From a bacterium ADurb.Bin236 (GTDB taxonomy: Bacteria > UBP15 > UBA6099), in assembly GCA_002069885.1 (NCBI GenBank), contig MWCD01000007.1, positions 1 through 64,000 of the forward strand: 64,000 bases of DNA. Direction: 5' to 3'. The translations under genes and the position numbers were made by a program. Of the stretch, positions 37,596 to 48,185 are shown in pieces (positions within the stretch are counted from its first letter, which is position 1; each line of letters starts with the position of its first letter). Below the pieces are notes generated by a model. The model was not told the origin of the DNA, searched no databases, and saw only the letters and a program-made list of their open reading frames with translations.

Positions 37596-38522
37596 ATGAG
37601 AATTAACGTTGCGATAGTGTTAGCGGCGTTGACGGTGTTTTTTTTCGGCTGCGCGAAGCAGGCAGGCGCGCAGGCCAGATACACAGTCGGCATTCCTGTC
37701 GTTGCAGGCATGGAAAACACTCAACTCGCTCCTCTGTTTCAGGAATTAGTAAAAGTGGTCGGCGATAAGCTGGGCGTCAAGGCGGAGACCAAACTGATTA
37801 TCTACGAACAGGGCGACGATATCCTGAAAAAAGTCCTCTCCGAGGTTGACTCGAAGAAGGTGGACATCACGCTTCTTTTCGGACAGGAGTATTCTGAGTT
37901 TCAGGCTACCGGACGAACGGACCTTATTCCCATCGCGACGTTGTCTGCGGCGGGACAGGCAGTGCTTTCCAACTGCCTATACGTGCGAAAGGGCGAATTC
38001 AAAAGTTTGCAGGAGTTGCGCGGCAAGAAATGGGCGGGGGCTAGTTACAGACCCACCAGATATCTTCTCTATAAAAAAGGAATAGACGAACCTCTCGACA
38101 AGTTCTTCGGCTCGATCGATTACGCCAATGATTCTCCGATAACTTTGATAGTGAAAGGTCTCGAAGAAAAACAGTATGACGCGTTTGCGTCTTACGACAG
38201 CTTTGTGAAGATTTCCGGCATGATGACGAAAAAGGACGTGTTCTTCGAGCCGCTCGTCTGCGAGAAATACGACCATTCATGGATATTTGTTGCCCGGAAA
38301 GAAATACCGGCCGCGACCATCGAGCAATTCAGAAAAGTTCTCATGGGCGCCGCAAAAGACCCGGACTTCGGGAAGTTCCAATTCGCTTTTCAGATGGTGG
38401 CTGGCAAATTTCAACCTGTAAAAGCTGATGATGTGAAATTCGTGCGCCAGATATTCGACTTAGGCATAAAGAGCGGATGGCGCAAGGAAGAAAACGCGTT
38501 TTTTAAAAAATACAAGCCGTAA
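37596..38522 (+). CDS. PhnD-like binding protein, first of three tandem copies
   Basis: 308 residues. The signal peptide ends in VFFFGCAK, which may be a weak lipobox. The mature protein belongs to the PhnD-like (phosphate/phosphonate/phosphite-binding) class II periplasmic fold: DITLLFGQEYSEF, NCLYVRKGEFKSLQELRGKK, LYKKGIDEPLDKFFGSI, HSWIFVARKEIP and SGWRKEENAFFKKYKP. The downstream two genes share these blocks, so the array arose by duplication. No permease or ATPase gene is nearby. Ligand unknown. Confidence 0.8.
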   Translation: MRINVAIVLAALTVFFFGCAKQAGAQARYTVGIPVVAGMENTQLAPLFQELVKVVGDKLGVKAETKLIIYEQGDDILKKVLSEVDSKKVDITLLFGQEYSEFQATGRTDLIPIATLSAAGQAVLSNCLYVRKGEFKSLQELRGKKWAGASYRPTRYLLYKKGIDEPLDKFFGSIDYANDSPITLIVKGLEEKQYDAFASYDSFVKISGMMTKKDVFFEPLVCEKYDHSWIFVARKEIPAATIEQFRKVLMGAAKDPDFGKFQFAFQMVAGKFQPVKADDVKFVRQIFDLGIKSGWRKEENAFFKKYKP

Positions 38523-38578
38523 AAAGCGGCTGATGATGCATGTGGCAAGATAAAACGAACTGAATAGCGGAGGAAAGA

Positions 38579-39538
38579 ATGGAAAGACAAACCAAGCACA
38601 GGTTTCTAGTGGCGGTTGTTGCCGTGGTAGCGGCGGCATTGCTCGCGATCCCGGCGGTCACGCAACAGCCCGCAGAAAAATACAATCTTGCCGTGCCTAT
38701 GATAGAAGGTTTCGAGCAGACGAAGTTCATTGAAATGATACAGCAGATGGGTGTCGCTCTCGGAAAAAAAATGGGATGCGACATCAAGTCCCAACCGCTG
38801 GTTTTTAAATATGGCCAGAGGCTGATTGACCTTGTCAGGAGCGGCGTCAAGGCTGGCAAAATAGATGTCTCATATATCAACGGACTTGAACACGGAGAAG
38901 CGCTTCTTGCGGGCGAATCCGACCTGACTCCGGTTTTCATCCTCGGCATGCAGAAATCGACCGTGGAGAAGGCTTGTTTCTTCGTCCGAAAAGGTGAATT
39001 CAAAGACATATCAGAATTGAGAGGAAAAAAATTCAAGGCATCCCATCCGCTGTTGTCGCGGGCCATTCTATATAAAAATGGGATAGACGAACCGCTTGAT
39101 AAGTTTTTCGGCTCGGTAGGCTATGCCACCGATTCGCCTCTCAATCCCATGATGGAAGGGCTGGCGAACAAAAGCATAGACGTTTTCGGAACCTATCTGC
39201 ACACTGTCTGGCTCGCCGGAGAACTCACGAAAAAAGACTCGATTGTCCAAGCCCTCGGATGCGAGGATGTGGAGAGCCACTGGGTGTTCGTTGCAAGAAA
39301 AGACATGCCGGAACAGAGGAAGGCGCAACTCATCAAAGCCGCCACCACCGCCCACAAAGACAAGGAATTTGCTCAATTCCAGTTTGCGTTCACTATGATC
39401 AACGGCCACTTCATGCCCGTGGATGATAAAGCGATTAAGATCAACAAGGAGTTCGCTTCGATGGTTAAAAAAGGCGGATGGCGCAAGGAAGAGGCAGAGT
39501 TCTTCAAAAAATATCATCCGGGCTACAAAGGCAAATAG
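38579..39538 (+). CDS. PhnD-like binding protein, second of three tandem copies
   Basis: 319 residues with a signal peptide (FLVAVVAVVAAALLAIPAV). Shares with its neighbours the blocks ACFFVRKGEFKDISELRGKK, LYKNGIDEPLDKFFGSV, SHWVFVARKDMP, and the C-terminal GGWRKEEAEFFKKYHPG. It starts 56 bp after the first copy with a GGAGG upstream, so the three are probably one transcript. The residues around the ligand pocket differ between copies (GQEYSEF here becomes NGLEHGE), which suggests different ligands. Confidence 0.8.
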   Translation: MERQTKHRFLVAVVAVVAAALLAIPAVTQQPAEKYNLAVPMIEGFEQTKFIEMIQQMGVALGKKMGCDIKSQPLVFKYGQRLIDLVRSGVKAGKIDVSYINGLEHGEALLAGESDLTPVFILGMQKSTVEKACFFVRKGEFKDISELRGKKFKASHPLLSRAILYKNGIDEPLDKFFGSVGYATDSPLNPMMEGLANKSIDVFGTYLHTVWLAGELTKKDSIVQALGCEDVESHWVFVARKDMPEQRKAQLIKAATTAHKDKEFAQFQFAFTMINGHFMPVDDKAIKINKEFASMVKKGGWRKEEAEFFKKYHPGYKGK

Positions 39539-39559
39539 CCCGACGGGGGTTGGCTGACT

Positions 39560-40501
39560 ATGAGAAAAACTTGTTTCATCGTTGCGATCGCAGTCGCTAT
39601 TAGCGCTGTTTCACAGTGCGTTTTTTTCACCGAGCGCTCGGAAGCGCGGGAGAAGTATGTCCTGAAACTCCCAGTGATTGAAGGTTTCGCCACAGATAAA
39701 TTAATGACGATGTTTCAGGACATGGCAAAAGTCATAAGCCAGAAAATCGACGCGGACATCACGGTTGATAAACTCACCTTCAGGCACGGCGACAGAATGG
39801 TCGCAGTTCGCGACCTCGAAACCGGCGCGGCGGATTTCGCATATCTAAACGGGATGGAGTTCGCGGAATACCAGAAATCCGGCAAGAAAGACCTGATGAT
39901 GCTTTTCACATTGTCGATGAATAAATCAACGATACTTAACCAATGCTTGTATGTGAGGAAAGGCGAGATAATGACAGTGGAAGCGTTGCGGGGCAAGAAA
40001 TGGGGGGCTTCCCAGTTGCTTCCCACACGGTTCCTGCTATACAAAAAAGGGATCAACGAGCCGCTTGAGAAGTTCTTTTCATCCGTGCGGTTCGTGTCGG
40101 ACGCGCCTATACCTAACATAGTTGGCGCGCTCGACGCAAAGGATATAGACGTGTTTTCAGCCGCCGAATCCGCAGTGAGGCTTTCCGGCGAATTAAACAA
40201 AAAGTCAGCTACATTCGCCCCCTTGTATTGCGAACCTTTCGAGAGCACGTGGGTATTCGTCGCGCGTTCGGGAGTTCCATCTCCGGTGGCTCTGAAACTG
40301 CGGGACATAATGACGACGGCGCACCGAAACCCGGAATTCAACGGCTTCAAATTCGCGTTCGCAATGATAGATGGCAACTTCACCGCGCTCGACGAAAGGG
40401 CCAAGAAGCTGAACGAGACAACATACGAGTTGGTCAGGAAGAACGGCTGGCTCAAGGAAGAGGACGCGTTTATCAAGAAGCACATGCCCCGCGCGAAGTG
40501 A
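39560..40501 (+). CDS. PhnD-like binding protein, third of three tandem copies
   Basis: 313 residues with a signal peptide (CFIVAIAVAISAVSQCVFF). Same plan: AYLNGMEFAEYQ, QCLYVRKGEIMTVEALRGKK, LYKKGINEPLEKFFSSV, STWVFVARSGVP and NGWLKEEDAFIKKHMP. Starts 21 bp after the second copy. A terminator-like hairpin follows at about 40584. In the absence of transporter genes these may feed a distant ABC permease or act as extracytoplasmic sensors. Confidence 0.8.
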   Translation: MRKTCFIVAIAVAISAVSQCVFFTERSEAREKYVLKLPVIEGFATDKLMTMFQDMAKVISQKIDADITVDKLTFRHGDRMVAVRDLETGAADFAYLNGMEFAEYQKSGKKDLMMLFTLSMNKSTILNQCLYVRKGEIMTVEALRGKKWGASQLLPTRFLLYKKGINEPLEKFFSSVRFVSDAPIPNIVGALDAKDIDVFSAAESAVRLSGELNKKSATFAPLYCEPFESTWVFVARSGVPSPVALKLRDIMTTAHRNPEFNGFKFAFAMIDGNFTALDERAKKLNETTYELVRKNGWLKEEDAFIKKHMPRAK

Positions 40502-40583
40502 TGAATCGGTTCGGCAATCCGTCACCCGCCGGTACTTATTTTGTTGATGAGAAATTTCGGATGATTTTTTTGAGCAATTAAAA

Positions 40584-40611
40584 AGGGGACGTTTCGCGAG
40601 AAACGCCCCCT
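40584..40611. terminator. Terminator between the PhnD trio and the SWIB gene
   Basis: AGGGG-A-CGTTTC / GAAACG-C-CCCCT stem with one mismatch and a GCGA tetraloop, with an A run before and a pyrimidine/T run after. It suits both convergent genes. Confidence 0.75.
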
Positions 40612-40658
40612 CCTCTTTTCTCCGTTATTTATTCAAGTCGACGCGTTTATTCGGCGCA

Positions 40659-41030
40659 TCAGGAAGCGTGCGCTTTGATGTATTTGCCCAGCTCGAACAT
40701 GCTGGCCTGTTTCTTTCCGCCGAAGAACGCCTTGAGCTTGTCGTCAGCGTTGATCATTCTTTTGTTCTTCGGGTCCTGAAGGTTGTTCTTCTTGATGTAC
40801 TCCCAGAGTTTCTTTGTGATCTGGGTGCGGGGCAGGGGTTTTGTGCCCACGAGGGCGCCGAGGATGGCGTCCGGCTGCACGGGTTTCATGAATTCCGGGT
40901 TCGGAGCCCTTTTGACTTTCTTAACAACTTTTTTAACGACTTTCTTCGGCGCCGCTTTTTTGGCAACCTTTTTCACGACTTTCTTTGCTGCCGCTTTTTT
41001 GGCAACCTTCTTCACAACTTTCTTCGCCAT
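40659..41030 (-). CDS. SWIB-domain protein with histone H1-like lysine-rich tail
   Basis: 123 residues. Residues 3-41 are three 13-residue repeats of the type KKVVKKVAKKAAA, similar to bacterial H1-like proteins; residues about 46-123 are a SWIB/MDM2 domain (LPRTQITKKLWEYIKKNNLQ, INADDKLKAFFGG, MFELGKYIKAH). Such fusions are known in Chlamydiae and some candidate phyla and are thought to bind DNA or organise the nucleoid. The gene has a strong promoter and GGAGG site, so it is probably abundant. Confidence 0.9.
   Translation of the reverse strand: MAKKVVKKVAKKAAAKKVVKKVAKKAAPKKVVKKVVKKVKRAPNPEFMKPVQPDAILGALVGTKPLPRTQITKKLWEYIKKNNLQDPKNKRMINADDKLKAFFGGKKQASMFELGKYIKAHAS
40908..41024 (-). repeat. 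Three 39-bp imperfect tandem repeats inside the SWIB gene
   Basis: They encode three 13-residue lysine/valine/alanine units at the N-terminus. The third unit has diverged (Val for Ala). Slippage could change the copy number. Confidence 0.8.
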
Positions 41031-41063
41031 ACACGCCTCCTTGAAAAAGTTTTGTTGTGTGCG

Positions 41064-41092
41064 ATTGTATCATTGTGAAAATGGGGTGTCAA
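41064..41092 (-). promoter_or_regulatory. Strong predicted sigma70 promoter of the SWIB gene
   Basis: Minus strand TTGACA (perfect), 17-nt spacer, TACAAT, 33 bp before the ATG. It shares the 12-mer TTGACACCCCAT with the acs promoter. Confidence 0.75.
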
Positions 41093-41111
41093 TAGAGGAG
41101 GGAATATATTT

Positions 41112-41140
41112 CATAGGGAAAACGTCATGTTTTCCCTATG
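41112..41140. repeat. Perfect 12-bp inverted repeat
   Basis: CATAGGGAAAAC and GTTTTCCCTATG around a 5-nt loop. There is no T run, so it is not an obvious terminator. It lies between the divergent SWIB promoter and the FliG-like gene and could be an operator or a stable hairpin. Confidence 0.7.
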
Positions 41141-41241
41141 AAAAAGAGCGCCCGGAAACGGGGGCTGGCGCGCAAAGGCTTGAAAGGTGTAGAATATGTC
41201 CGTCAGGAAGGCCCGCCGAGGCGGGCGCGAGGGAGGCGCGG

Positions 41242-41523
41242 ATGGGCGATTTCTTTCAGTTTCTCTCTGTTTATGAAGACGCTCAGGTTGCGGACATCTT
41301 GAGCGAGGAAAGCGCGGATGTCGCCGCTGCCGCTCTTGGCAATCTTCCTCCTGATAGGGCCGCCGCCATTCTCAGACGCCTGCCGAAAAAAGATTCGGCG
41401 GAAGTGTCTCTGAAGCTGGCCCGCGCTGAAAACGTAGACCAATCCGTCATGGCCGCAATGGAGCGCGCCCTGCGAAAGAAGTTCTTCAGCGTTATCTCCG
41501 GCGCGCCCAAAGCGGTAGAATAG
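41242..41523 (+). CDS. Small stand-alone FliG middle-domain-like protein
   Basis: 93 residues with GGGAGG five bases before the ATG. The sequence follows the FliG_M pattern: FFQFLSVYEDAQVADILSEE, then LGNLPPDRAAAILRRLPKK, EVSLKLARAENVDQSV and MERALRKKF. FliG is the flagellar switch protein; here the N-terminal FliF-binding and C-terminal torque domains are absent, and the EHPQ motif of genuine FliG is EESA. The MgtE N-terminal domain is similar in design and is an alternative reading. A GC hairpin (41211-41226) lies just before the ribosome site. The flagellin gene 1 kb away makes a flagellar link attractive but unproven. Confidence 0.65.
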   Translation: MGDFFQFLSVYEDAQVADILSEESADVAAAALGNLPPDRAAAILRRLPKKDSAEVSLKLARAENVDQSVMAAMERALRKKFFSVISGAPKAVE

Positions 41524-41593
41524 ACGGCGGCGCGATGAAACAACGTCGTTCCGTTCTCTCTGCAATTTCTTCGGATTGCTCTAGAAAAACGAA

Positions 41594-42058
41594 CTATCTT
41601 CCGAAAGTTCCCATTAGTTGAGTTTCCGCGATGGACAGTTTTTTGACGACCGCCCAGACATTTTCGATGCTTGCGGCAGGCGGAAGCCCGGACGGTTCTG
41701 ACAGCGCGAATAGTTTGAAGAAGTATCTGTGAACGAGGCCGGGAGGAGGGCATGGGCCGCCGTAGCCCGTCGTCCCATAGCTCGTCAATCCCTGCGCCGC
41801 GTTAATCGAAGCGACCCTAGCTCCTCTGTCCACGTTCTCCGGCAGCGACATCGTGTCAGGGCTTATCCCGTAAATCGTCCAGTGCGTCCAAGTCCCCATC
41901 GGAGCGTCGGGGTCGTCCATTATCAGCGCAAGCTCGACAGTCCCGCTTGGGGGCGCGCTCCAATGCAATTCAGGAGACACATCAACGCCCTTGCAAGTGT
42001 GCCTGTCGGGTATGCGCTGATTTTCACTGAATGCGGGGCTGCTCAGTGTCCAGCTCAT
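41594..42058 (-). CDS. YbhB/YbcL-type PEBP protein (Raf kinase inhibitor-like)
   Basis: 154 residues, family length. The phosphatidylethanolamine-binding protein signatures are present: LIMDDPDAPMGTWTHW, GYGGPCPPPG and HRYFFKLFAL. Cytoplasmic (no signal peptide). Bacterial members have no firmly established role. It is preceded by a 295-bp gap with no gene. Confidence 0.92.
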   Translation of the reverse strand: MSWTLSSPAFSENQRIPDRHTCKGVDVSPELHWSAPPSGTVELALIMDDPDAPMGTWTHWTIYGISPDTMSLPENVDRGARVASINAAQGLTSYGTTGYGGPCPPPGLVHRYFFKLFALSEPSGLPPAASIENVWAVVKKLSIAETQLMGTFGR

Positions 42059-42353
42059 GTTCCCTCTTTCCCCGGCGGCCGCGCGGGCTTTATGCCGCCT
42101 TCACTGTGTCGGCGAGTTCGCCGCTCCGCGACGGGTCTGGAGAACGTTGTCGGCTGAGTCGTTTCCGATTCCGCGTCTGACATCTCCTGTGGCTCGGCGC
42201 CCGGCCTTGACCGCCGCTCACAACCCGCGCGTCTCCCGCGCTTTTTTCAAGTTTCGATTGCGCTTATTCTATCATTATGACGCGCGCGTTCAACACTTCG
42301 ACAAAAAAACAATTAGTTTGAGACGCCTGAGAAACAAGCTTCATCATGAAACA
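42059..42353. other. 295-bp non-coding gap
   Basis: Lies between the PEBP gene and the flagellin 3' end. I see no gene and no clear terminator. Confidence 0.5.
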
Positions 42354-44015
42354 TCAGGCTAATGACATATCGATCAAATCTAACACCGTCGAGCCGTTGA
42401 TGGACGAGCTTTGTGCGAGAACCGAAGTCGCGCTTTGTGCGAGAATGTTTTCTTTGGTCAAAGAGAGAGCTTCGCTAGCGATGTCCGCGTCAAATATCGC
42501 GCTCTTAGAGTTTTCTATGCCGATTATTTGGGCCGCAGTGTCGTTTGCGATATGATTGAGAACTCGTTCCTGTCTTCCGATGATAGAAAGGGCGTTGCTC
42601 AGAGCTCCGATAGCTTTGTCCGCTACGGAAATCGAGCGTTGAGCCGAATCCGCGTTAGTGACGTCCACGAAGAGCAGGTAGTCGAGAGCGCCGCCGACTC
42701 CCCAAGGGGTCTGCGCGTCTTTTCTGAAACTGTCCCCGTTATCCGCGCCAACCTGCAGATACCATGAATTCGACTGAACCTCATTGGGAGGGTTGGATGT
42801 CCATGCCATGCCGTTCGTGTCGACCGTGAGATGTTTGCCGTTGTTTATGTAGTCGGTGGACCAAGCGTCCGCCGCCGTTTCGAAATCTGCGAAAGATGCG
42901 TATGTGTCGGCAAGAACGGTTTCTACGGCTGTGTCGAAGTCGGAGCCGTTGATTACTTCCTGAGCGATTTCGCGCATGCGGCTTGCGCCGAATTTTTCTA
43001 CGATGAATTTTCCGGCTAAGGCCGCCTCGGCGTATTGATTAGAGTCAGCCGGGGCGGATGTCAGCCCGCCGCCGATTGCGGCGAGAACTCCGGCCTCATT
43101 GCCAGTTATGCGCCTGTCAGCTTCTCCCGACACCATAGCGGCCAGCATCTCTTGTCCCCAAGCCGAGCCGCCTCCGCCTCCTAGAGCTATAAACACCGCG
43201 TGTGTCATCTCATGGACTACGACCATCTCCATCGTGAAACCGTGAACAGCCGGGTCGTAACCGAGAAGTTCTGACAACGGACCCGGCCCGTCGGGATCGA
43301 GAAAATCTTCCACGTCGAAGTTCATGACCATGTTGCCGGGAGCGCCGCCGCCGGTCGCCAGCGCGCCTCCGTTGCCGTCGATCTGGCTGAAGTTTATCGT
43401 AAGATTGAAAGTTTCATCAGGCGAAATGCCCAACATGCCGAACACTTTCTCCATGGCGCGGTTGGTCATCCTGACCACCCTGTCCGCCATTTCATCGTAT
43501 TCGGCGTCTCCGGGAGCCGCCGGCGGAGCTGGCCCGGCCCATGTATGGTTGACTGTGGTCGAATTTAAATTCGTCGTTACCGAATTCTGGCCTTCATAAT
43601 TTGAAGTCACGCTCTTCGTGTTGAATTTGGTGGCTTGTCCCGTCCGGTTAATTTCATTCTTTAGTGATTCGATTTCATTTTGTATTTTTGTTAGGTCGGC
43701 AACTGTAAGAGTCGCTTCATTCGCGCCTCGCACGCAAAGGTCTCGGATTCTTTGAGTCATATCTGATATTTCTCTAATGCCGCCTTCCGCCGTGCGCAAC
43801 ATGTTTATTCCGTCCTGAATATTATGCATGCAGACGTTCAGGCCGCCGATCTGCGCTCTCATGCCGCTTACTATGGCGAGTCCGGACGGATCGTCAGCCG
43901 CCCGGTTTATCCGAAGCCCGGAAGACAGTCTTTGCATCGCGACCGCAGCCGCGCTATGCCTTGAGTCAATGTCATTCAAGGCTCTCATCGCGGCGATGCT
44001 TGTGTTTATAATCAA
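42354..44015 (-). CDS. Flagellinolysin: flagellin with inserted zinc metallopeptidase domain
   Basis: 553 residues. The N-terminal 135 residues (MQRLSSGLRINRAADDPSGL, NIQDGINMLRTAEGGI) and the C-terminal 100 (GRQERVLNHIANDT, ENSKSAIFDADIASEALSLT) are ordinary flagellin D0/D1. In place of the variable domain sits a gluzincin-like peptidase: His268-Glu269-Met-Thr-His272 in VVVHEMTHAVF, probable third ligand Glu289 in AWGQEMLAAM, and SGEADRRI. This matches the described flagellinolysin family, whose filaments digest protein. The start is a TTG preceded by AAAGGAAA; the MIINTSIAAM beginning is typical of flagellin. Cys62 and Cys94 in the D1 helices are unusual. No other flagellar structural genes lie nearby except a FliG-like fragment. 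Confidence 0.93.
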   Translation of the reverse strand: MIINTSIAAMRALNDIDSRHSAAAVAMQRLSSGLRINRAADDPSGLAIVSGMRAQIGGLNVCMHNIQDGINMLRTAEGGIREISDMTQRIRDLCVRGANEATLTVADLTKIQNEIESLKNEINRTGQATKFNTKSVTSNYEGQNSVTTNLNSTTVNHTWAGPAPPAAPGDAEYDEMADRVVRMTNRAMEKVFGMLGISPDETFNLTINFSQIDGNGGALATGGGAPGNMVMNFDVEDFLDPDGPGPLSELLGYDPAVHGFTMEMVVVHEMTHAVFIALGGGGGSAWGQEMLAAMVSGEADRRITGNEAGVLAAIGGGLTSAPADSNQYAEAALAGKFIVEKFGASRMREIAQEVINGSDFDTAVETVLADTYASFADFETAADAWSTDYINNGKHLTVDTNGMAWTSNPPNEVQSNSWYLQVGADNGDSFRKDAQTPWGVGGALDYLLFVDVTNADSAQRSISVADKAIGALSNALSIIGRQERVLNHIANDTAAQIIGIENSKSAIFDADIASEALSLTKENILAQSATSVLAQSSSINGSTVLDLIDMSLA

Positions 44016-44165
44016 TGGCTTAACGTTTCCTTTCGCGCATAATTAGAACGCACACAACACCAGACACCATGCAAACGACAATATCGTTTACATGTCCGAC
44101 TTCGCGAACAATACAATTACTAATCCAACGCGTCCGCGCACTATCCGAACGCGCCTATGGTTCAT

Positions 44166-44192
44166 TTATCGTCGATATGGAGAAAACCTTAA
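44166..44192 (-). promoter_or_regulatory. Predicted sigma28 (FliA) promoter of the flagellinolysin gene
   Basis: Minus strand TTAA, 15-nt spacer, GACGATAA, one base from GCCGATAA at -10. It gives a leader of about 140 nt before the TTG start. No competing sigma70 promoter was seen between it and the tRNA. Confidence 0.65.
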
Positions 44193-44235
44193 CGATACGC
44201 AAAAAACATTATTTTTTGACTTATTAAAGATGGTA

Positions 44236-44311
44236 TCGGAGTGAGAGGATTCGAACCTCCGGCCTCTGCGTCCCGAACGCAGCGCTCTAAGCCATGCTGA
44301 GCTACACTCCG
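44236..44311 (-). tRNA. tRNA-Pro (anticodon CGG)
   Basis: 76 nt cloverleaf: acceptor CGGAGTG/CACTCCG, D arm GCTC/GAGC, anticodon stem CTGCG/CGCAG with loop TTCGGGA (anticodon CGG), and T arm GGAGG-TTCGAAT-CCTCT. The discriminator is A, and CCA is not encoded. It has its own sigma70 promoter just upstream. Confidence 0.96.
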
Positions 44312-44322
44312 TCAACGGATAA

Positions 44323-44351
44323 TTTATAATATTTTCAGGCCCGGTTGTAAA
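44323..44351 (-). promoter_or_regulatory. Predicted sigma70 promoter of tRNA-Pro
   Basis: Minus strand TTTACA, 17-nt spacer, TATAAA; transcription would begin about 5 bp before the tRNA. Confidence 0.7.
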
Positions 44352-44492
44352 GCGCCGCGCGGAATTACCGCAAAATGACGCTCTTCAGCGCGTCGCGCGT
44401 CGTCAGGGGTTTGAAATGAAAGCCGGAAAAGCGCTAAAGTGAGAGGCGCGGAGCGCCGACAACGAAGTCGCGGCGCGTTAGGTTTTTTCGGA

Positions 44493-45428
44493 ATGAAGCT
44501 TACACATATTCTTATAGGGATAGTATCCGTGTTGCTCAGGGTTCTGCCTTCGCGCGCTCAGGAGTCTCTTGCGGACTTTTTCGGCTCGTTGTTCGTCAGG
44601 GTCTATCCCCGGAGCATGAATCTGATGCTTAGCAATCTGAGGCGCGCTTTCAAGGACGAGTATTCCGATGATGAATTGAGGGAGATAGCAAAACGCTCAA
44701 TCCAGAACCTCATTAAAAGCATGTTCGAGTTTTTGCGGTTTCCGGTTTACGACGAAAAGGCTCTTGAACGGATGGTCTCCATAGAGGGGACTGAGCATCT
44801 TGCCGCCGCGTTGAAGGCGGGCAAAGGCGCGGTTGTTATTTCGTCGCATTACGGCAACTGGGAGCTTCTGGCGTGGAAACTTGCCGTCTGCGGCTATCCT
44901 CTGACCGCTGTGGGCCGCGAGCAGGATGACGGCGTAATCAACGACATGATTGTGAAGCTGCGAACAAGCAAGGGCACAAAGCACATACCGCGCGGTGTCC
45001 CGATGTTTCAGCATATAACGGAACTGCTGGCGGCAAATCAGTGCGTAGGGCTGGTCTCTGACCAGAACGCCGGAACAAGGGGTATATTCGTGGACTTCTT
45101 CGGCTCGAAGGTCTCCGCCTTCAAAGGGCCGGGACTGTTCGCCGTCCGGTGCGGTTGCCCGGTTATCCCTCTTTTTATTGTCAGGGAAGGTTATGAGAAG
45201 CATCATGCGGTGATTTTCCCCGAGGTAGTTATCAAAAAGACTGGAGACGCGGGAAAGGATATCGCCGCTTACTGTCAGGGGTACACCTCGGCGATAGAGG
45301 AATTCGTGCGAAGGCATCCCGACCACTGGTTCTGGATACATAAAAGATGGAAGACGCGCCCTCCGGGGGAAGAGGAACCCGGAGGAACAAATAATGGCGT
45401 GATATCAAACAGGGAGATTGATGAATGA
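44493..45428 (+). CDS. LpxL/HtrB-family lipid A acyltransferase
   Basis: 311 residues from the ATG at 44493; the frame is open to 44439, but the added residues are Arg-rich and not family-like. The first helix (THILIGIVSVLLRVLPS) anchors it in the inner membrane. The catalytic H-x4-E motif is in VISSHYGNWELLAW, with later family blocks DQNAGTRGIFVDFFG and HPDHWFWIHKRWKTRP. It transfers an acyl chain from acyl-ACP to a lipid A precursor, so the organism probably makes LPS. Its stop overlaps the next start (ATGA). Confidence 0.92.
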   Translation: MKLTHILIGIVSVLLRVLPSRAQESLADFFGSLFVRVYPRSMNLMLSNLRRAFKDEYSDDELREIAKRSIQNLIKSMFEFLRFPVYDEKALERMVSIEGTEHLAAALKAGKGAVVISSHYGNWELLAWKLAVCGYPLTAVGREQDDGVINDMIVKLRTSKGTKHIPRGVPMFQHITELLAANQCVGLVSDQNAGTRGIFVDFFGSKVSAFKGPGLFAVRCGCPVIPLFIVREGYEKHHAVIFPEVVIKKTGDAGKDIAAYCQGYTSAIEEFVRRHPDHWFWIHKRWKTRPPGEEEPGGTNNGVISNREIDE

Positions 45429-47494
45429 AATCTAAAAAAGCGAAGACGATAGTAATTGTCGTGGCGGCGGCCGCATTGGCGCTTGTGGTTGTCGTGAAAG
45501 TGGTTATAGACGTCAAATTCGGAGTGAAAGCGGATAAATGGAAGCCGAAGGAAGGTACTCCGGCGTGGTCGAGTTCCGCGCCCGTCCCCGACATTCAGAG
45601 GACGACCCCGGAGGACTCGACATTCGAGGAGCGCAGGGCGAAAACTCTGGCGGTTGCGGCGAATCCGGAGGCGAATTCTCTGTTGGAATCGTTGCTTGCG
45701 GTGCGCGCCGGGCTGCTGGAAAAAATTCCAGACGAGATAGTGGAGGAGAGCGCAAAGATTCTCGACACCCGGGACGACTGCGCGGACTTCACCATGATAC
45801 GGGTCGTGCGCGCGCTGTACGAGCATTCGGCGTCGCCTGTTCTGACGAGCGAGCAATACGCCCGGCTCAAGGGCGCGGCCCTGAACTTCAAATACTGGGT
45901 GGACGAACCCGGCCCGGACAAGATGATTTCTTGGACGGAAAACCACCAGATTCTTTTTCATTCGAGCGAATACCTGATGGGGCAGATGTTCCCGGACGAG
46001 ACGTTTAATAACAACAAGCGCAAAGGGCGCGAACACATGAAGCACGCCGAACCTTACATCCGCAAATGGATAGACAGGCGCGCGCGCTGGGGCTTCAGCG
46101 AATGGGACTCGAATGTTTACATGGCGGAGAACCTTCCGGCGATTCTGGCTCTGGCCGACTATTCGCTGGACCCGGAGATGGCGCGCCTCGCGGCGATGGC
46201 TTACGACTTGATGTTGTTCGATATCGGCTCCGACCTGTACAGGGGCATGTACGCGGGGTCGCACGGCCGCACGTACACGAAAAAAATTGTAAGCGGCAGG
46301 GATGATTCCGTCAGGGGCGTGATTTATCAGGTTTGGGGATACGGGTATCCGACGCCGGGAATGAGTTCGACGGCGCTTGCGATGAGCAGAAGCTACAGGC
46401 CGCCGCAGGCGATTGTAAACGCGGGCCGCGCTCTTCAGGAGGAGTATCTGACTCGCGAACGCCACGGCATCCGACTTCAGGATTTAACTATGCACGGCTT
46501 GGACCCGAAGAATCCGGACGACCTTGTTTTCTTATGGGGAATGAGCGCGTTCACCCAGCATCAGGTGGTGGCTCACACCCTCGCAGCGTTCCACAAATGG
46601 GACTTGTGGAAACACCCGTTCGTGGACTCCGCCCCCAAGGAGATAAAACTGATTCCAGCAAACGGCCTGACCGCTTTCATAACCAGATTCATCACGATTG
46701 AATCCGACAGGGCGCTGCTCTCAGAAGTGAACAAGATAGGATACCGCACGCCGGATTATTTCCTCGGCTCGGCGCTCGACTACATGCCCGGTTACATCGG
46801 GAATCAGCATCATATCTGGCAGGCGATGTTAAGCCCGGACGCTGTGGTGTTCACGTCGCACCCCGGCTCTCCGGTGGACGAGGGAGACCGCACGCCCACA
46901 TACTGGGGCCACAACAGGCTCCCGCGCGTCGCCCAGCACAAAAACGTCCTTGTCGCCGTGTACAACCTGAAAAACACGACCGTGCTCGGCCAGCGCAACT
47001 TCCACGACTACACTCACGCGTTCTTCCCGAAATGGGCTTTCGACGCGGTGGAGACGAAAGGCAACTGGACGTTCGCCAAAAAGGGAGACGGATATGTGGC
47101 GCTGTATTCGAGCGCCCCGACTTTCTGGGCGGAAGAGGGCAGGGACGCGGGAGTGGAGCTTGTCGCGCCCGGCCGCAAGACGATATGGATATGCCAGTTG
47201 GGACGCCGCGCCACAGACGGCTCTTTCGATAGGTTCAAGGCTTCCATCCTCGGAGCGGATTTGAAGACGAATGGATTGAGCGTCAAGTATGACGCTCCGG
47301 GCGTCGGAAAAATCCGCTTCGGCTGGAAGGGCGATTTCACCGTTAACGGAAATCAGGAGCCGATGCGCGGTTTCAAAAGGTTCGACAACCCCTATTGTCA
47401 GGCTGATTTCAACAAGGGCGAGTTCGCGATATCGGCGGGCGCAAGCAAGCTGACGCTGGATTTCGCTAAAGCGGTGCGGCAGATTGAAGACTGA
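45425..47494 (+). CDS. Large membrane-anchored extracytoplasmic protein, possibly polysaccharide-lyase-like
   Basis: 689 residues. A single N-terminal hydrophobic helix (IVIVVAAAALALVVVVKVVI) anchors a large extracytoplasmic part. The middle (residues about 100-430) is helical with WTENHQILFHSSEYLMGQMF, GFSEWDSNVYMAENLPAILAL and HQVVAHTLAAFH, resembling the (alpha/alpha) toroid of heparinase- or alginate-lyase-type enzymes; the last 250 residues look like a beta sandwich (YVALYSSAPTFWAEEG). I do not recognise the exact family. Four-base overlap with the lipid A acyltransferase suggests an envelope role such as surface-polysaccharide processing. Confidence 0.6.
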   Translation: MKSKKAKTIVIVVAAAALALVVVVKVVIDVKFGVKADKWKPKEGTPAWSSSAPVPDIQRTTPEDSTFEERRAKTLAVAANPEANSLLESLLAVRAGLLEKIPDEIVEESAKILDTRDDCADFTMIRVVRALYEHSASPVLTSEQYARLKGAALNFKYWVDEPGPDKMISWTENHQILFHSSEYLMGQMFPDETFNNNKRKGREHMKHAEPYIRKWIDRRARWGFSEWDSNVYMAENLPAILALADYSLDPEMARLAAMAYDLMLFDIGSDLYRGMYAGSHGRTYTKKIVSGRDDSVRGVIYQVWGYGYPTPGMSSTALAMSRSYRPPQAIVNAGRALQEEYLTRERHGIRLQDLTMHGLDPKNPDDLVFLWGMSAFTQHQVVAHTLAAFHKWDLWKHPFVDSAPKEIKLIPANGLTAFITRFITIESDRALLSEVNKIGYRTPDYFLGSALDYMPGYIGNQHHIWQAMLSPDAVVFTSHPGSPVDEGDRTPTYWGHNRLPRVAQHKNVLVAVYNLKNTTVLGQRNFHDYTHAFFPKWAFDAVETKGNWTFAKKGDGYVALYSSAPTFWAEEGRDAGVELVAPGRKTIWICQLGRRATDGSFDRFKASILGADLKTNGLSVKYDAPGVGKIRFGWKGDFTVNGNQEPMRGFKRFDNPYCQADFNKGEFAISAGASKLTLDFAKAVRQIED

Positions 47495-48185
47495 CGCAGG
47501 GAGCCGCGCCACGACGCGAAAAGCGCCCGGCGGCCGCCCGGACGACGGTATCGCCATGCGGATGTACGAGGCGATGTTCGAGAGCATCGGCCCGAGGGGC
47601 TGGTGGCCGGGCCGCACACGGTTCGAGGTCTGCGTCGGCGCGATTCTCACACAGAACACCGCTTGGCGCAATGTGAAACGCGCCATTGCAAACCTCAAGG
47701 CGGCCCGCGCGCTGAACCCCGTCTCTATGCGAGACATGGACGCAGACGCGCTCGCCGAGCTTATCCGCCCTTCCGGCTATTACAACGTCAAAAGGCGCAG
47801 ACTGAAAAATTTCGTGTCCATGCTTTTCGACGACTTCGGCGGCTCCCTCGACAGGCTGTTCGCTCTTCCCGCTCCGGAACTTCGCGTCAAGTTGCTTTCC
47901 GTCAACGGCATAGGCATGGAGACTGCTGACTCCATAACTCTTTACGCGGCGAAAAAACCGGTGTTCGTGGCGGACGCTTACACCCGCCGCATCGGCGGCA
48001 GACACGGCCTTTTCTCCCCGGACGCCGATTACGAGACGATGAGGTTGTATTTCACGCGGAGGCTTCCTGAGGACGTCGCTCTTTTGAACGAATACCACGC
48101 GCTGATTGTCGCAGTGGGAAATAGACACTGCGGCACGACGCCCGACTGCGAAGAATGTCCGTTAAAGGTTTTTCCCAGATATTGA
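47484..48185 (+). CDS. Endonuclease III-family DNA glycosylase
   Basis: 233 residues from a TTG at 47484 that overlaps the previous gene; an ATG at 47556 is an alternative. HhH-GPD core: VGAILTQNTAWRNV, the hairpin VNGIGMETADSI, and the catalytic Asp in VFVADAYTRRI. The GxGxETAD form marks the MIG-like/monofunctional branch rather than EndoIII proper (which has Lys here). The C-terminal Fe-S loop reads C-x5-C-x2-C-x5-P: the fourth Cys is replaced by Pro. It overlaps the next gene tail-to-tail by 24 bp. Confidence 0.88.
   Translation: MKTDAGSRATTRKAPGGRPDDGIAMRMYEAMFESIGPRGWWPGRTRFEVCVGAILTQNTAWRNVKRAIANLKAARALNPVSMRDMDADALAELIRPSGYYNVKRRRLKNFVSMLFDDFGGSLDRLFALPAPELRVKLLSVNGIGMETADSITLYAAKKPVFVADAYTRRIGGRHGLFSPDADYETMRLYFTRRLPEDVALLNEYHALIVAVGNRHCGTTPDCEECPLKVFPRY

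Follow-up and report, generated by a model that had tools for sequence, protein, structure and literature searches.

A flagellin gene with a predicted peptidase in its variable region

The window analysed here, a stretch of 64,000 nucleotides, derives from a bacterium of UBP15 ('Candidatus Lagoxiota'), a candidate phylum described from six genomes that originated from a black smoker, digester sludge and wastewater (PMC11382960). Within it lies a gene for a 553-amino acid (aa) flagellin with a predicted metallopeptidase domain (Table 1). A sequence-only reading had drawn attention to this gene and gave no strand; the stop codon ends at 42354 and the gene lies on the minus strand. As that reading held, flagellin D0/D1 segments form both ends of the protein. 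Flagellin_N and Flagellin_C are both above their Pfam cut-offs, and nothing else in the protein is significant by Pfam. The frame is intact in three other UBP15 genomes (G001, G003 and G006, with 97, 96 and 51% identity), and two same-genus genomes besides the window's own preserve both the TTG start and the upstream AAAGGA.

A sigma-28-like site lies ∼150–180 bases upstream of the gene, with a score that is reached in 2% of shuffles. G001 and G003 have TAAA-N15-CTCGATAA at the same place, and a perfect TAAA-N15-GCCGATAA precedes a main flagellin gene on contig C59 of the same genome. The site upstream of the peptidase gene is itself weak and suggestive only.

The gene lies outside any flagellar cluster, and its neighbours are genes for a PEBP-family protein, tRNA-Pro and a lipid A acyltransferase. 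Other genes in the window include three similar tandem genes (37596–40501), two of which match phosphonate-type periplasmic binding proteins while the one between them lacks any Pfam match at 1e-5, and a gene for a SWIB-domain protein (40659–41030) with a lysine/alanine-rich, histone-like N-terminal tail.

The other flagellar genes on which the sequence-only reading depended are present in the host genome. Pfam identifies FlgH, FlgI, FlgK, FlgN and a rod-binding protein. Adjoining these are one flagellin and a FlgL-like protein; the latter is assigned by position, and Pfam sees it only as Flagellin_N/C. At least eight other flagellins are encoded on contigs C59 (three), C16 (two), C20, C48 and C10. 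On contig C48, a 1993-aa ORF (L068, 9090–15068) stands beside the flagellin gene.

Table 1. Features at the flagellin-peptidase locus, in window coordinates
Feature	Position	Strand	Basis
CDS, 553-aa flagellin with predicted metallopeptidase domain	42354..44015	minus	ORF and translation; TTG start 44015-44013
Flagellin_N (D0/D1 N-terminal core), residues 3-136	43608..44009	minus	Pfam PF00669, 5.2e-31
Flagellin_C (C-terminal core), residues 463-540	42396..42629	minus	Pfam PF00700, 1.9e-8
Predicted gluzincin peptidase domain replacing the flagellin variable region, ∼residues 170-391	42843..43508	minus	NF033876 match, AlphaFold2 model and fold matches
HEMTH, residues 268-272: two predicted zinc-binding His and catalytic Glu269	43200..43214	minus	H, E, H invariant in 7/7 flagellin-borne sequences
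W286-x-x-E289-x-x-A292: predicted third zinc ligand and 'basement' Ala	43140..43160	minus	Alignment with gluzincins
Asp237, which may correspond to the calcium-site Asp206 of C. haemolyticum	43305..43307	minus	Inference from PMC5595980
AAAGGA, ribosome-binding-like sequence before the TTG start	44028..44033	minus	Conserved in three genomes
Weak sigma-28-like promoter, TTAA-N15-GACGATAA	44166..44192	minus	10/12 matches
Segment missing from the syntenic G002 site, with 83 bp of unrelated DNA instead	42310..44230		Alignment to G002
tRNA-Pro (CGG) bordering the segment missing in G002	44236..44311	minus

Family, predicted zinc site and predicted fold of the peptidase domain

The whole protein matches the NCBIfam flagellinolysin model NF033876 with 84.3 bits (E = 1.1e-23, profile positions 1–273 of 384) and falls short of the curated cut-off of 205 bits. 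Because NF033876 includes the flagellin ends, we scanned the variable region by itself. It matches the model with 66.3 bits (3.2e-18), and the next family follows at 3.7e-4. The proposal that this is a flagellinolysin thus stands as far as homology of the domain is concerned, but not as membership by the curated threshold. Given its score, we regard the protein as a divergent branch rather than a textbook flagellinolysin. These matches support its assignment as a flagellin with a flagellinolysin-type peptidase domain. By chance, a sequence of equal length and composition would contain 0.006 HExxH motifs; this expectation, the match of the peptidase region and the frame kept in three other genomes together exclude chance. 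Other searches returned little. The match to PF13485 is weak (0.023), Pfam gives no match to Peptidase_M9 at E up to 10 within HMMER's filters, and a PDB profile search gives no collagenase at E up to 10. Sequence search gave no meaningful solved relative, and the defence-system library gave no match.

The residue numbering of the active-site motifs was verified: HEMTH begins at residue 268, the Glu of QEM is residue 289 and GEADRR begins at 297. Sixteen residues separate HEMTH from Glu289, which lies in W286-G-Q-E289-M-L-A292. We aligned this region with 14 other peptidases, nine non-flagellin gluzincins and five flagellin-borne. The W-x-x-E-x-x-A register is found in all nine of the former and in four of the latter, with gaps of 15–29 residues, and the third-ligand Glu is kept in 13 of the 14, the remaining one having a His. 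This register makes Glu289 the candidate third ligand and its short gap not unusual; gaps of 15–17 residues are common to several ordinary gluzincins. Glu298 (in SGEADRR) was also considered as the third ligand. It is conserved in UBP15 and in the relative from genome G156, but the register favours Glu289. Asp237 is conserved in six of the seven flagellin-borne sequences. The Clostridium haemolyticum flagellinolysin binds its zinc through His233, His237 and Glu262, and Ala265 lies beneath the metal (PMC5595980).

AlphaFold2 models were built on seven sequences. The full-length model is of moderate confidence (pLDDT 62.5). Residues 149–411 were folded alone because flagellin cores filled the VIA-align list for the full-length model, and this domain model reached a pLDDT of 72.5 and a pTM of 0.75. 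Its elements run in the order of three strands, the HExxH helix and then a helix holding Glu289. The top Foldseek matches are clostridial collagenase peptidase domains (ColH 4arf, E = 2.4e-3, probability 1.00), and the top VIA-align rows contain zinc gluzincins only, with Z of ∼11–13 overall. Examples are lugdulysin (M30; Z 12.7), ColH 4ar1 (Z 12.3, 4.3 Å over 220 residues) and M1 aminopeptidases (Z ∼12). Since Z below ∼13 can be common among helical folds, the fold call rests on the agreement of motif, element order and top matches rather than on Z. The peptidase domain is predicted, with moderate model confidence, to have a collagenase-like gluzincin fold. Motif register and predicted fold together support His268, His272 and Glu289 as the expected ligands of one zinc site; these residues and Glu269 lie where the sequence-only reading had placed them.

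Distribution, selection and origin of the peptidase cassette

The peptidase gene is present in four of the seven UBP15 genomes sampled (G000–G006), namely G000, G001, G003 and G006. It was not found in G002, G004 or G005, and absence is less sure in G002 and G004, which are 88 and 80% complete. A 55% identical domain is encoded in JAGUYV010000098 (DeMMO6_30). Among 386 sampled genomes, 20 match NF033876 at E ≤ 1e-12, mostly through plain flagellin ends; inspection of the matches leaves three flagellin-borne relatives outside UBP15, one per genome in G156, G182 and G275. The gene is therefore rare, as had been surmised. The classes of G275 and G182 yielded nothing new among the 2 and 3 genomes available. 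The further suggestion that the lineage might be unreported agrees with the open-access papers searched, none of which links UBP15 with flagellinolysin.

In G275, the flagellinolysin frame (L022, 1177–4200) runs without a stop into a second Flagellin_N and then into PD40 propeller repeats, as though a pair of functional flagellins had been joined. The flagellin-borne peptidase of G156 (L028, 1174–2826) has His at the third-ligand position (W-x-x-H-x-x-A). The flagellinolysins collected in 2017 were described as having a conserved Glu there without exception (PMC5595980).

G002 belongs to the same genus as the host and has a syntenic site: window positions 40568–42309 and 44231–47806 align on one of its contigs, and the segment that carries the peptidase gene is missing between them (Table 1). 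That G001 and G003 carry the gene at this site makes loss in G002 somewhat more likely than gain elsewhere. We also considered insertion of a mobile element at the tRNA-Pro gene, which borders the segment, but comparison with the empty site revealed no repeat of the tRNA end at the other border. Likewise, a plasmid or phage origin was set aside, the peptidase region having no match in plasmid and phage collections or in viral contigs.

Selection on the peptidase domain is strongly purifying, although the number of changes is small. In three same-genus pairs, dN/dS is 0.06, 0.045 and 0.03 in the peptidase region and 0.175, 0.108 and 0.036 in the N-terminal core, so that the peptidase region is lower in each. 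These low values are notable because flagellin variable regions usually evolve faster than the cores (PMC7643111).

The UBP15 and G156 proteins share 35–36% identity in the variable region and only 25–27% in the core. We built a tree of 30 flagellin cores, in which the G156 protein forms a long branch. The peptidase-bearing core of G156 clusters with the other flagellins of that genome (100/100). A constraint that unites the UBP15 and G156 peptidase-bearing cores is rejected (p-AU 0.006), a weaker test given the long G156 branch; one that unites all seven such cores is rejected much more decisively (p-AU 2e-77). Because the core trees reject a single origin of the flagellin scaffolds, the peptidase cassette has apparently moved between resident flagellins. 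Transfer of the peptidase domain alone was proposed in 2017 for clostridia (PMC5595980). UBP15 and G156, which is kin to the host only at domain level, are apparently a further case of such peptidase-only transfer, here between distant lineages. A broader scenario is tentative, and on balance we lean against it as a whole: UBP15 and the G156 lineage may share a separate clade of flagellin-borne peptidases, in which the cassette moved between unrelated resident flagellins and the third ligand changed from Glu to His in one lineage, with UBP15 filaments built from a kit of functional flagellins (peptidase, beta-propeller and VWA).

A putative catalytic flagellin and its relation to known systems

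We consider it highly probable that the gene encodes a catalytic flagellin with a gluzincin peptidase on the filament surface. The D0/D1 ends would pass through the flagellar type III system and polymerise together with ordinary flagellins, probably as a minor subunit among the many others of this host. The variable region would fold into the peptidase on the filament surface, with zinc bound by His268, His272 and Glu289, Glu269 as the general base and Ala292 under the zinc. Its role may be to cut extracellular protein, for nutrient release or for loosening of the sludge or biofilm matrix; the sequence-only reading had suggested attack, nutrient capture or matrix digestion, and candidate substrates are nutrients, matrix and the flagella of other cells. 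Zinc binding, cutting and position on the filament are inferred from the two characterised family members, both of which are active zinc- and calcium-dependent peptidases (PMC5595980, PMC7643111). The C. haemolyticum enzyme is located on the filament (PMC5595980).

One alternative is a domain that has retained the fold and motif of a gluzincin without being an active peptidase, and that decorates the filament in a structural or binding capacity. The departure from the canonical EGxAE, the score far under the family cut-off and the His in the G156 relative would fit such a role, which we nonetheless consider unlikely: HExxH, Glu289, Trp286 and Ala292 are all retained in the three other UBP15 copies, and constraint on an important active site would produce dN/dS of 0.03–0.06, as could a binding role. 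Similarly improbable is a peptidase that is mainly secreted unpolymerised through the flagellar apparatus, or that acts on the flagella of other bacteria, rather than remaining filament-bound. Flagellin_N and Flagellin_C are both intact, and the C. haemolyticum protein is evenly distributed along filaments (PMC5595980). This must be set against the H. gracilis flagellinolysin, which degrades foreign flagellin and is not encoded in a flagellar cluster (PMC7643111), and against the window's own gene, which is also solitary and beside a tRNA gene. Independent capture of an ordinary Peptidase_MA_2-type gluzincin, with convergent likeness to flagellinolysin, is less probable still, since the variable region by itself matches flagellinolysin far better than any other family and resembles that of the G156 flagellin, even though motif and gap length are common to several non-flagellin gluzincins and PF13485 matches weakly.

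The catalytic flagellin that we favour is of a known kind, flagellinolysin (FlaMP, MEROPS M101; NF033876), exemplified by C. haemolyticum FliA(H) and H. gracilis HgrFlaMP; the novelty lies in its branch, its phylum and its score beneath the cut-off. Like these proteins, it places a predicted gluzincin peptidase between flagellin N- and C-terminal ends and shows HExxH and, three residues before an Ala, a putative third-ligand Glu. Its nearest fold is the clostridial collagenase peptidase domain, and Asp237 is a candidate for the calcium-site Asp. It differs in its UBP15 host, its score, its shorter HExxH-to-Glu gap (16 residues versus 24 in C. haemolyticum, by the latter's numbering) and its EMLAA in place of EGxAE, which lacks both the Gly that normally follows the third-ligand Glu and the acid found at +4. 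The G156 peptidase shares the blocks ILATGGG, EMxVxHEMxHAV and VSGE with the window's protein, but has the His substitution and a core of G156's own type. Peptidase M9, represented by the ColH peptidase domain, provides the best Foldseek matches but only ∼14% identity; the window's protein lacks the collagenase accessory domains, and sequence search does not recover M9. Peptidase_MA_2 and MXAN_6640-type gluzincins have HExxH followed by W-x-x-E-x-x-A at a similar gap, but are not in flagellins and match weakly in sequence.

In the literature we found two characterised flagellinolysins, one from Clostridium and one from a betaproteobacterium. The divergent branch described here, from a candidate phylum that is uncultured, extends the family past the lineages named in 2017, and curated models miss such divergent branches. 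It also provides a clear case of one peptidase domain on different flagellin scaffolds. Moreover, syntenic presence and absence within one genus lets the enzyme's value to its host be asked.

Flagellin-like genes are numerous in UBP15, with 15–21 matches in each of G002, G005 and G006, some of them ∼1000 aa long. UBP15 flagellins with other domains suggest that filaments may serve as a display surface. Several contain beta-propeller repeats (PD40/DPPIV_N) in their variable regions (L118, 1275–3026; L119, 639–2342; L122, 324–3341; L127, 1–2610). Two others (L123, 877–2493; L128, 974–2599) have weak VWA matches in the variable region (4e-4 and 9e-4, below the Pfam cut-off).
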